Shown here: in pieces, positions 60,961-64,000 of the stretch | Position numbering within the stretch: position 1 is the stretch's first letter | Layout: every line of letters begins with the position of its first letter | From: Limnohabitans sp. | GTDB lineage: Bacteria > Bacteroidota > Bacteroidia > Flavobacteriales > Flavobacteriaceae | Assembly (NCBI GenBank): GCA_030053945.1 | Contig: JASGCW010000004.1 | Coordinates: 1-64,000 of the forward strand | Direction of reading: 5' to 3' | DNA: 64,000 nt | Notes under the pieces: generated by a model | Database searches by the model: none | What the model was told of the DNA's origin: nothing | Seen by the model: only the letters and a program-made list of their open reading frames with translations | Translations under genes and position numbers: made by a program

Positions 60961-62235
60961 TTAGAATCCAAAAGCACTTTTTATTTTATCTACAAAGTCA
61001 AGTTTTTCCCAAGTAAATAATTCAACTTCTAGTTCTTTAACTTCACCTGATGGAGAAACAAAACGCTTTTTAACAACTTCATTCTTACGTCCCATATGTC
61101 CGTAAGCAGCTGTTTCGCTATAGATAGGAGTTCTTAATTTTAAACGTTGTTCTATTGCATAAGGTCTTAAGTCAAATAATTCATTTACTTTTTCAGAAAT
61201 TTGAACATCTGATAATCCGTTTTTAGCAGTGCCGTAAGTGTTTATGTAAACATTACAAGGTTTTGCAACTCCAATAGCATAAGATACTTGAACTAATACT
61301 TCGTCTGCAACTCCAGCAGCCACTAAGTTTTTAGCTATATGGCGTGTAGCATAAGCTGCGGAACGGTCAACTTTTGAAGGGTCTTTTCCAGAAAAAGCAC
61401 CACCACCGTGAGCTCCTTTACCTCCATAAGTATCTACGATAATTTTTCTACCTGTTAATCCAGTGTCACCGTGAGGGCCGCCTATAACGAATTTACCAGT
61501 AGGGTTAATGTGGTAAACAATTTTGTCATTAAATAAATGAGCATATTGTGGATATTTAGCTGTAATTCTTGGAATAAGAATCTCAACGATATCTTTTTTA
61601 ATTTTTGCTAGCATCTCAGTTTCTTCGGCAAAATCATCATGTTGTGTTGAAATTACGATAGAATCAATTCTAACAGGTTTGTTGTTGTCATCATATTCTA
61701 AAGTTACTTGCGATTTTGCATCAGGACGTAAATAAGTGATTGCTGAATTTTCTCTACGTAATTCCGCTAATTCTTGTAATAATTTATGAGACAAGTCTAA
61801 AGCTAAAGGCATATAATCCTGAGTTTCGTTAGTTGCATAACCAAACATAATTCCTTGGTCACCTGCTCCTTGTGCGTTAGCTTTAGTTTCAAAATCAGCT
61901 TCTGTAGTAATTCTATCTACTCCACGATTAATATCATCTGATTGTTCGTGAATTGCAGACAATACTCCACAAGAGTTTGCTTCAAACATATATTCGCTTT
62001 TTGTGTAACCAATTTTTTTGATTACCTCACGTGTGATGCTTTGTACATCTAAATAGGTCTTAGATTTTACTTCACCAGCTAATATCACTTGTCCAGTGGT
62101 TACTAGTGTTTCACAAGCTACTTTTGAAGATGCGTCAAAAGCTAAGAAGTTGTCAATCAATGCGTCGCTAATTTGATCAGCAATCTTGTCTGGATGTCCT
62201 TCGCTTACAGATTCTGACGTAAATAAATAGGCCAT
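60961..62235 (-). CDS. metK: S-adenosylmethionine synthetase
   Basis: 424 residues, slightly longer than E. coli's 384, as in other Bacteroidota. It makes SAM from methionine and [22 protein letters not shown] holds the ATP-binding His, [12 protein letters not shown] is the conserved hexapeptide region (GAGDQG), and [20 protein letters not shown] is the C-terminal signature. Its 5' leader contains a SAM-II-like riboswitch, so it is probably repressed when SAM is plentiful. Confidence 0.97.
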
Positions 62236-62294
62236 AATTTAAAATTTTATTAATTAAGGTAAAATTTGCATAGATCGCCTAAAGAGTAGTATTA

Positions 62295-62378
62295 CTGCTT
62301 TAGCATTTTTTTATTCTATTTAGTTTCTTAAAGAATCTAGTTCGAATAGAGGTTGCAATCAGTTCAAATTTTTCCTCT
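62295..62378 (-). promoter_or_regulatory. SAM-II-like riboswitch in the metK leader
   Basis: Read on the minus strand: AGAGG (P1 5' arm, 62378-62374), then a loop with TTTGAACTGATTGCAA, then CCTCT (P1 3' arm, 62352-62348), a ~40-base loop with an inserted hairpin (AGATTCTT..AAGAAACT), and finally TGCTAAAGCAG (62305-62295). The CTG in the loop can pair with the terminal CAG, and TTGCA with TGC-T-AA (one bulged U). This pseudoknot arrangement mirrors SAM-II (GATTTAACCGTATTGCA ... AGCTAAAAAGGG), with CTG/CAG replacing CC/GG. It begins about 15 bases after a -7 box and ends 59 bases before the metK start. Direct sequence identity to a known family member was not tested. Confidence 0.72.
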
Positions 62379-62392
62379 TGTTTTTTGTGTTG

Positions 62393-62400: not shown

Positions 62401-62599
62401 TGAATTGCAATTGAAATTTAGCTTATTATTTTATTTATTTTTTTTATTACATAGATTTCGAGTCGGTAAATATTCGATTTTGTAGTTTTTTTAATTTATT
62501 AGTAAATGTTTTTAAAGAAAATAATTTTGTTTAAACTTCTTTTTTGTAGTAAAATTTAGAAAAATAATCTATTTATTATTTTTTTAAAGAATATATTTC

Positions 62600-62607
62600 T
62601 ATTTTTG
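62600..62607 (+). promoter_or_regulatory. Putative -7 box TATTTTTG for the methionine leader
   Basis: Exact TANNTTTG, 24 bases before the leader-peptide ATG, so the transcript would begin near 62613. Confidence 0.55.
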
Positions 62608-62631
62608 CCTTGTAAAAATAATTTGATTACA

Positions 62632-62700
62632 ATGTTAGTAAATGCAATAATGATGTTTATGATGATGTCGGATAATTCCGCAGAGAACTTTATTGTATAA
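62632..62700 (+). CDS. Methionine-rich leader peptide (attenuator)
   Basis: 22 codons, ATG at 62632, TAA at 62698-62700. Met is at positions 1, 7, 8, 10, 11 and 12, so five of the six codons 7-12 are Met (AIMMFMMMSDN). The frame is followed by an antiterminator/terminator pair and then a trans-sulfuration enzyme gene of the methionine/cysteine family. This is the arrangement of amino-acid leader peptides such as those for his, leu and trp: ribosome stalling at the Met codons when methionine-tRNA is scarce would change RNA folding downstream. Confidence 0.88.
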   Translation: MLVNAIMMFMMMSDNSAENFIV

Positions 62701-62728
62701 TTTAATAATATTACTTAAAGACCTCTGC
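62680..62728 (+). promoter_or_regulatory. Antiterminator pairing of the methionine attenuator
   Basis: GCAGAG (62680-62685) and CTTTA (62688-62692), both inside the end of the leader peptide frame, pair with CTCTGC (62723-62728) and TAAAG (62716-62720). This gives 6 + 5 bp around a 2x2 internal loop. The CTCTGC segment is also the 5' arm of the terminator, so the two structures exclude each other. A ribosome reaching the leader stop covers 62680-62692; one stalled at the Met codons leaves it free. Confidence 0.82.
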
Positions 62729-62746
62729 AAAAGCAGAGGTTTTTTT
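62717..62746 (+). terminator. Attenuator terminator before the trans-sulfuration gene
   Basis: ACCTCTGC-AAAA-GCAGAGGT with an extended A/T base (AAAG on one side, T7 on the other), 20 bases before the ATG at 62767. Confidence 0.9.
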
Positions 62747-62766
62747 ATGATTTTAAAGCAAATTTT

Positions 62767-63942
62767 ATGGCAGTACAATTAGAAACACTTTTGGCAAATT
62801 TAACACAGTATAGTGGTATTAAAGATGCTTATGGAGCAACACACTTACCTATATATAATACAGCAACTTTTGATTATAAGCGTCAAGAAGGGGCAGATGT
62901 GCTTTATGATTATTCAAGAACAGATAATCCTACTAGGAATGCTTTAGAAACAGTTTTTGCAAAAGCAGAAGATGGTTTCGGATGTATTTGTACCAATACT
63001 GGTATAGCTGCCATTGCATTATTGTTTGAAACAGTTTTAAAATCAGGTGATATAGTTCTAATTGAAAGAGATTGTTACGGAGGAACTTATAGATTGCTTA
63101 ATATTCTTTTTGAAAAAAATAATATAAAGGCTTTATTTGCTGATTTTACTAATGAAACTGAAGTTGAAGATTTGTTAAAAAACAATACAGTTAGATTAGT
63201 ATTATGTGAATCGCCAACAAACCCTGGACTTAAAATAGTTGATATTAAAAGCATAGCTGATTTAGCAAAAAAATATGATAGTGTTTTTGCAGTTGATAAT
63301 AGTATGGCGACTTTCGCTTCTCAAAAACCACTTGATTTAGGAGCAGATTTTTCTATTTTTTCAGCAACAAAATATGTTTCAGGTCACGGCAGTGTAGTAG
63401 CGGGTGCTATTGTCGCTAAATCAGAGTATTGGTATGAAAGAATTCATTATTATTCTAATGCACAAGGTAGAGCGCAATCTCCTTTTGATGTTTTTCTTGT
63501 GTCACTTGGATTACCTTCTTTAGTTTATAGAATGAAAGCCCAAGAACAAAGTGCAATACAATTAGCAAATCAATTACTAGAGTTTCCAGAAGTTAAATCG
63601 GTAAAGTTTCCTGGTTTGCCTTCTCATCCTCAGTACGAATTGGTTAAAAGGCAAATGAAAATTGTACCAGCTATTTTGACAGTAGATTTTGAAGATGAAT
63701 TTATTGCAGAATCCGTTATCAAGAATACAAAACTATTTGGGGAAAAGGTTTCTTTTGGTACTGCAGATTCTAGAGCAGAAATACCTGCAAAGATGAGTCA
63801 TGCTACCTACTCAGAAGAGGATTTGATTAAAATAGGTCTAACAAAATCTACGGTTAGATTCTCTGTAGGTTTAGAAAATGTTGATGATTTATTACAAGAT
63901 ATAAAGCAAGCAGTGTTAGCTTCGACAATTAAAGTTTTTTGA
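62767..63942 (+). CDS. PLP-dependent trans-sulfuration enzyme (cystathionine γ-synthase/O-acetylhomoserine sulfhydrylase family)
   Basis: 391 residues. Cys/Met-metabolism PLP fold: YSRTDNPTRNALE, the substrate loop CYGGTYRLL, ESPTNPGLKIVDI, VDNSMATFASQKPLDLGADF and the PLP lysine in SATKYVSGHGSVVAG. The exact reaction (MetB-like cystathionine γ-synthase, MetY/MetZ sulfhydrylase, or γ-lyase) cannot be decided from sequence, but control by a methionine leader peptide favours a biosynthetic step toward methionine. Confidence 0.9.
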   Translation: MAVQLETLLANLTQYSGIKDAYGATHLPIYNTATFDYKRQEGADVLYDYSRTDNPTRNALETVFAKAEDGFGCICTNTGIAAIALLFETVLKSGDIVLIERDCYGGTYRLLNILFEKNNIKALFADFTNETEVEDLLKNNTVRLVLCESPTNPGLKIVDIKSIADLAKKYDSVFAVDNSMATFASQKPLDLGADFSIFSATKYVSGHGSVVAGAIVAKSEYWYERIHYYSNAQGRAQSPFDVFLVSLGLPSLVYRMKAQEQSAIQLANQLLEFPEVKSVKFPGLPSHPQYELVKRQMKIVPAILTVDFEDEFIAESVIKNTKLFGEKVSFGTADSRAEIPAKMSHATYSEEDLIKIGLTKSTVRFSVGLENVDDLLQDIKQAVLASTIKVF

Positions 63943-63945
63943 AAA

Positions 63946-64000
63946 ATGCAAAATTTATTCCAAAATATCCCTTGTGGGAAATCAATTCCATTAAATAATC
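63946..64000 (+). CDS. Partial gene at the window end
   Basis: ATG 3 bases after the previous stop; open to the last base: MQNLFQNIPCGKSIPLNN. It should be the next gene of the methionine transcript. Too short to identify. Confidence 0.45.
   Translation, partial: MQNLFQNIPCGKSIPLNN

Follow-up and report, generated by a model that had tools for sequence, protein, structure and literature searches.

Methionine genes are, as far as is known, mostly sensed by MetJ, SAM riboswitches or T-boxes. The locus studied here raises the question whether a short frame crowded with Met codons, placed ahead of a terminator and a gene of Cys/Met metabolism, could serve as the sensor through its own translation, and whether such a unit stands alone. 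It lies near the end of a 64,000-nucleotide stretch of Limnohabitans sp. (assembly GCA_030053945.1, contig JASGCW010000004.1, positions 1 to 64,000), assigned to the Flavobacteriaceae in the GTDB lineage and referred to here as the window. Features are on the + strand unless stated otherwise.

The leader upstream of metB and its surroundings

Reading of the sequence gave a leader frame MLVNAIMMFMMMSDNSAENFIV at 62632..62700, with ATG at 62632, 22 sense codons and TAA at 62698-62700. Met is encoded at codons 7, 8, 10, 11 and 12, and the proposed regulatory stretch, codons 7-12 (62650..62667), reads M M F M M M with five Met in six codons. Three distinct short ATG frames with at least three Met in six codons were present on the two strands of the 64-kb window, and only the leader frame had five. 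The 5' strand of the putative antiterminator (region 2, 62680..62692) consists of GCAGAG (62680-62685) and CTTTA (62688-62692), and its 3' strand (region 3, 62716..62728) of TAAAG (62716-62720) and CTCTGC (62723-62728); the latter overlaps the 5' arm of an intrinsic terminator (regions 3:4, 62721..62746) with the arms ACCTCTGC (62721-62728) and GCAGAGGT (62733-62740) and seven T at 62740-62746. Both inverted repeats were also recovered by a mechanical repeat search, and both covary in relatives. The sequence-only reading had described a 22-codon Met-rich frame with two mutually exclusive RNA structures and had placed the antiterminator strand inside the end of that frame; the letters reproduced this description exactly, 62680-62692 lying within 62632-62700. 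A protector pairing 1:2 (62647-62658 with 62685-62696, spanning 62647..62696) is predicted from the MFE fold and from clade permutation and encloses a small hairpin (62669-62672 with 62677-62680).

Upstream of the frame, a -7-like box TATTTTTG (62600..62607; consensus TAnnTTTG) was read from the sequence as the predicted promoter of the leader transcript, and similar boxes occur in relatives. The element TTTAGAAAAATAATCTAT (62555..62572), 18 bases with inverted TAGA/TCTA ends, has only two exact matches in the 4.98-Mb genome, at 62555-62572 and at 86293-86310 of contig C248. The two copies precede the metB and metX leaders, each 27 nt upstream of a -7-like box, and may serve a methionine regulator as operator or promoter element.

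The putatively regulated gene (62767..63942) encodes a PLP-dependent enzyme of Cys/Met metabolism (Pfam PF01053, 361.4 bits) and is called metB here. The best NCBIfam model for its product was TIGR02080 (cystathionine gamma-synthase-like) with 315.7 bits at a cut-off of 504.55, and the protein scored below the cut-off of every NCBIfam model among the best 25 of 46. Its ATG (62767) lies 66 nt past the leader stop codon and approximately 20 nt past the terminator. The next gene of the operon, encoding a second PF01053 protein, begins at 63946 (start codon placed by eye) and runs off the window at 64000 (30-1424 in the extended locus L130). On the - strand, the divergent S-adenosylmethionine synthetase gene metK (60961..62235; TIGR01034, 508.5 bits, cut-off 309.4) is preceded by a SAM-II riboswitch in its leader (62290..62383; Rfam RF01726, 51.6 bits, gathering score 44), which lies outside the attenuator. 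Eight loci were searched for SAM-II; six (L001-L004, L033 and L034) had it, and two (L031 and L032) gave no match.

Conservation, covariation and predicted folding

Close orthologues of the metB product (E up to 1e-120, 68-100% identity) were found in 12 of 398 genus genomes, the own one included, and all 12 carried a Met-rich leader frame followed by the CCTCTGC hairpin with its T tract, a conservation that rules out a Met run arising by chance. Together with the leaders of named Flavobacterium davisii (L033) and F. columnare (L034), these formed a set of 14 metB leaders. Their Met runs align across all 14 sequences, that of the window included, and each run contains at least three Met. The sequence-only reading had predicted Met-codon runs with compensatory changes upstream of orthologous genes, and both were found; the case it had named as refuting, a terminator kept where the Met-rich frame is lost, did not occur among the 12 genus orthologues. 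Nearest to an exception came F. columnare, in which the Met run is kept, the leader frame continues through the terminator and the enzyme frame hits a stop at residue 43. The same combination of a reading-on leader frame and a first enzyme stop at residue 43 was seen in L085 (genome G355), and the two loci suggest a joint decay of switch and gene. In F. davisii the leader is intact and the enzyme frame has a stop at residue 294 of about 390; in genome G197 (L070) the leader is kept next to an enzyme frame with two internal stops. No leader was found at the orthologues of Cloacibacterium rupense (65% identity) and of the metagenome-assembled genome UBA1937 (64%).

RNAalifold on alignment A2 gave the terminator as the only consensus structure, probably because the linkers vary, and the antiterminator was then tested by named pairs. 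Since A2 alone showed no two-sided change in the first antiterminator helix, the larger alignment A4 (95 distinct rows), which had not been fitted to this helix, was used. In A4 the helix (columns 74-80 with 148-154) was paired in 89.6% of cells as compared with 35.5-61.1% for slid versions, and four of its pairs changed on both sides (21 cells). Its covariation score was reached by 0 of 500 shuffles and its number of two-sided pairs by 2 of 500, where the shuffles ignore genome relatedness. A slide by -3 columns also gave 21 two-sided cells (three pairs), but only 37.1% of its cells were paired and its score was 0.042 versus 0.170. The outermost pair (80-148) was unpaired in 46 of the 95 rows. 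For the terminator, whose helix was part of the model, six two-sided pairs were counted at 99.5% pairing; covariation of the small hairpin after the Met run was not above that of shuffles.

Strands 2, 3 and 4 were found to co-vary as triplets, with the variants GCAAGGG/CCCTTGC/GCAAGGGC, GCAGCGG/CCGCTGC/GCAGCGGC, GCAGGGG/CCCCTGC/GCAGGGGC, CAAGAGGC/GCCTCTTG/CAAGAGGC and GCGGAAGG/CCTTCCGC/GCGGAAGG. The reading phase of the leader strand varied, with 79, 39 and 20 of 138 leaders in the three possible phases, which argues that the RNA rather than the peptide has been kept. The distance from the last Met/Cys codon to the antiterminator strand was 10-14 nt in 126 of 138 leaders, and that from the strand to the stop 9-13 nt in 124 of 138, spacings that the model favours. 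For the window copy alone, a codon-shuffle test of the antiterminator strand was not significant (p = 0.14), and the evidence for the antiterminator is comparative. The same test gave p values up to 0.05 at 87 of 154 sites, single sites being weak evidence because the helices are short. Terminator-like hairpins were present at all 154 sites, most of which had been found with the model containing that hairpin.

Full-length MFE folds of the 14 leaders paired the Met-codon region with the frame end and formed the terminator. In ensemble folds without a ribosome, the terminator probability was 1.0 in 14/14 leaders; pairing 2:3 also formed transiently (mean 0.87) before the 3' arm was made and was then replaced by 3:4. 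Ribosome cover was modelled as cut RNA, under the assumption that it extends 12 nt beyond the first nucleotide of the codon in the A site. When the last Met codon was occupied, the antiterminator reached 0.99-1.0 in 14/14 leaders before the 3' arm was made; once this arm was present, its mean probability was only 0.32 (0.19 for the window), so that read-through would depend on kinetics. For a ribosome at the stop codon, which L034 lacks at this place, the terminator value of 1.0 follows from the hiding of region 2 and is no test. When strands were swapped among five clades, the native 1:2 pairing ranked 1 of 120 clade permutations, with single members failing (e.g. F. davisii). The second 2:3 helix ranked 3 of 120, with L002, L004, L069 and L034 pairing natively no better than the swapped mean.

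Distribution, codon content and tandem arrangement of related leaders

A covariance model (R1) was built from the 14 leaders and searched against 398 genomes of the genus and 397 of the family. At E values up to 0.1 it matched 351 of the former and 253 of the latter, many of the weak matches being likely due to chance; those near E 1e-3 outside the genus were taken as mostly chance. With E values no higher than 1e-6, a wider model (R2, 100 sequences) matched 213 of 299 genomes of the genus, on part of which it had been trained. A total of 143 sites was classified, comprising 81 distinct R1 matches (88 minus seven same-place repeats), 60 further ones by E-value order and, from the own genome, two sites of low score; genes were named by blastp to 12 references, most of them typed by NCBIfam or Pfam. 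The nearest gene was metY at 92 sites, metB at 14, metX at 13, cysH at 10, an OsmC gene at five and metH at two; CpeT and TonB receptor genes accounted for two each, cysD and a thrA-like gene for one each, and one site had none. After exclusion of the 14 training sites and of the two sites picked from the own genome, a sulfur-amino-acid gene was nearest at 117 of 127 sites. The other 10 comprised five OsmC, two CpeT and two TonB receptor genes and one site without a match; metY follows at both CpeT sites, and three of the OsmC genes are followed by a metX or thrA-like frame. The sequence-only reading had proposed a single methionine attenuator: the unit in the window is supported, and the scope proved too small. 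The window leader looks like one unit of a wider set of Met/Cys leaders in the Flavobacteriaceae, often arranged in tandem before metY.

Leaders of the same Met/Cys type were seen before a TonB-dependent receptor gene in L125 (the same place as L210) and L193; the receptor might be a transporter for methionine, cobalamin or a sulfur source.

The identity of the codons followed the gene. In the best 8-codon run, metB leaders (n = 14) had means of 4.8 Met and 0.1 Cys, metH leaders (n = 2) 5.0 and 0, metX leaders (n = 13) 3.8 and 0.9, metY leaders (n = 80) 3.6 and 1.8, and cysH leaders (n = 10) 1.5 Met and 3.5 Cys; these means refer to unique leaders and include the training sites and own-genome picks. 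The Cys fraction of the Met+Cys run was 0.50-1.00 before cysH/cysD (11 leaders) versus 0-0.40 before metB/metX/metH (29 leaders), with a Mann-Whitney p of 2e-7 that is too small because the genomes are related and the rows not independent. Because the metB leaders used for training had runs of nearly pure Met, R1 is biased against Cys runs. The own genome provides both types. On the contig of the window, a five-Cys leader MNKNNKIVVKFNANASCCCCCQLRWEVVCTIY with a terminator (L130 10011-10163, contig 74011-74163) precedes cysH, followed downstream by cysD, cysN, cysE and cysK; a Met leader MKKYFTSMQYMMWMLSLRGRV (L131 from 11369) with a terminator precedes metX and thrA. A SAM-I riboswitch (RF00162, 70.5 bits; L233 1306-1440) was located on own contig C248 before metH at 96007. 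With this SAM-I, a single pathway of one genome comprises SAM-I, SAM-II, Met leaders and a Cys leader.

The unit in the window is single. Where the first unit ended 90 nt or more before the gene (110 sites), a second Met/Cys-rich frame was found in 89 and a second terminator in 76, counts for which no chance level was computed. The second terminator was commonly AAGTCCTTTTGG...CCAAAAGGACTT with T, and several second leaders end in codons giving CCAAAAG, which copies the 3' arm, an arrangement shared with the first unit. A second antiterminator in the tandem leaders is suggested by these copies, with codon-shuffle support in 24 of 66 second leaders. Second frames were present before cysH in five of eight, before metX in three of 11 and before metH in two of two cases, the remainder being mostly before metY. 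Those before cysH were Cys-rich (mean fraction 0.71, five leaders), those before metX and metH Met-rich (Cys fraction 0.12-0.25, five leaders). These patterns probably reflect a sulfur-amino-acid regulon of the Flavobacteriaceae in which one RNA scaffold is re-tuned per operon by Met/Cys codon swaps. In this regulon metY usually, and cysH, metH and some metX, would lie behind two serial attenuators acting as a two-step gate that reads charged tRNA-Met and tRNA-Cys, beside end-product SAM riboswitches at metK and metH.

At E up to 1e-4, R2 matched 18 of 335 class genomes, six of them from the own genus. Among 13 loci outside the family, L212, L213, L217, L218 and L227 were leader-like by eye, L214, L215, L216, L221, L222 and L223 were not, and L220 remained uncertain. 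The leaders of L212, L213, L217 and L218 contain Cys/Met codons and precede a NirA/CysI-type reductase gene or metY; L217 and L218 (from 1501) have two successive Cys-rich frames before the reductase gene, whose protein family was scanned for L217. L227 (1501-1634) harbours an Asn-rich leader MKSLKNNFFNYNSNNNIRAERLFY with matching antiterminator and terminator before asnA (gene from 1801; TIGR00669 above cut-off), possibly an asparagine attenuator in another family of the class. In Ruminococcus (L035, L036, L048, L055, L056 and L057), short Cys/Met-rich frames precede the metB-like match by approximately 1.1-1.3 kb; in L056 (1654-1820) a terminator-like hairpin follows such a frame ahead of another gene. 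In Pontibacter (L051 2744-2785), a short frame MRNPMRMMACCCC precedes the start of a metY-like gene by approximately 135 nt, with no clear terminator.

Proposed mechanism, alternatives and known systems

From the comparative data and the RNA models, 62632-62746 very likely attenuates transcription through the translating ribosome, with charged tRNA-Met as the sensed signal, and is predicted to open the sulfur-amino-acid operon when methionine is short. The leader frame would be translated. Stalling of the ribosome at the Met codons would block region 1; region 2 (62680-62692), being exposed, could then pair with region 3 (62716-62728) and prevent the terminator from forming. If the ribosome instead ran on to the stop codon, it would mask region 2, 3:4 would form and transcription would end near 62746. 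Without a ribosome, 1:2 together with 3:4 is predicted to end transcription too. Three features of the trp/his type are present at the sequence level, namely a leader frame with pathway codons, an intrinsic terminator and a covarying, mutually exclusive antiterminator. The earlier proposal of trp/his-type logic applied to methionine is supported by the conserved frame and terminator, the covariation and the match between codon and gene.

Sulfur genes are often controlled by riboswitches or T-boxes, and the terminator could in principle belong to such an element sensing SAM or tRNA-Met directly, with the Met-rich frame being incidental. The SAM-II element on the metK strand of this intergenic region and the SAM-I element at the own metH speak for this reading. 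On the + strand, however, no Rfam family reached its gathering score here, and a permissive scan of 62480-62800 gave only sub-threshold matches to unrelated families. No SAM-I or SAM-II aptamer was found in the metB transcript by the Rfam scan, which gave only RF01726 on the opposite strand; no T-box matched before metB in either the gathering-score or the permissive scan, nor did Bacteroid-trp or Flavo-1 RNA. A direct ligand sensor would not need codons that follow the gene, and we regard this explanation as very improbable.

Slightly more credible, yet still improbable, is an arrest peptide, in which a specific nascent chain would stall the ribosome in response not to uncharged tRNA but to a ligand such as SAM or methionine. 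Its RNA anatomy would look identical, and many leaders have a Trp after the Met run (MMMWK/R), although this TGG codon may have been retained because it sits in the predicted hairpin arm. Against a specific chain, the peptide outside the Met/Cys run is unconserved, the antiterminator RNA reads SAE, PQR or SRV by phase, and Met is swapped for Cys when the gene changes. The lowest probability is given to an action of the frame at translation, by reinitiation or leader-enzyme coupling, with the hairpin as a processing or general terminator element. The short stop-to-gene gap of 66 nt in the window would suit coupling, whereas among the sites the gap from the terminator to the nearest matched gene ranges from under 25 to 869 nt and the hairpin with its T tract is kept. 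Attenuation by the translating ribosome is the preferred reading. If it holds, the trp/his attenuation logic appears to have been applied to methionine and cysteine in a large environmental family, and codon identity would offer a testable route to what each flavobacterial operon senses. Natural gates of two serial attenuators would be on offer, and tRNA-charge sensing and SAM sensing would adjoin in one genome.

The leader-peptide attenuators of E. coli trp and his combine regulatory codons, the pairings 1:2, 2:3 and 3:4 and a terminator before a biosynthetic gene. The same pairings and ribosome-position geometry are proposed for the window leader; different are the Met/Cys codons, the occurrence in Bacteroidota and the two serial units often found before metY. 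SAM-I and SAM-II riboswitches and Met T-boxes likewise control methionine genes at the RNA level and bind the ligand or tRNA directly, whereas a translated codon run is the proposed sensor here. Bacteroid-trp RNA (Rfam RF01692), whose name points to trp genes, is another cis-regulatory candidate of Bacteroidetes (PMC2864571), to which the window leader showed no match at the gathering score or in the permissive list. For Flavobacterium psychrophilum, a member of the same family, a transcriptome study reports strong indications that leader peptides attenuate operons of amino-acid biosynthesis, and lists structured 5' elements, pheA and hisG being among the genes concerned (PMC9723704); the main text of that study does not contain the word methionine, and its Table S7 may list some of these leaders. 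For Actinobacteria, the parts of PMC1262725 consulted describe candidate Cys leaders with Cys-codon runs before cys operons, and report that no terminator hairpin is conserved at the mycobacterial cys leaders, nor any regulatory RNA structure at methionine operons. Cys-codon runs are common to both groups, and a terminator with a covarying antiterminator distinguishes the leaders described here from what those parts report. Among the papers that searches of open-licence PMC text brought up, none was recognised as an account of Met leader attenuation in Bacteroidota. In comparison with these systems, the mechanism class is a known one, and the leaders described here appear to differ in their amino acid, in how widely they are spread, in the switching between Met and Cys and in the tandem arrangement.
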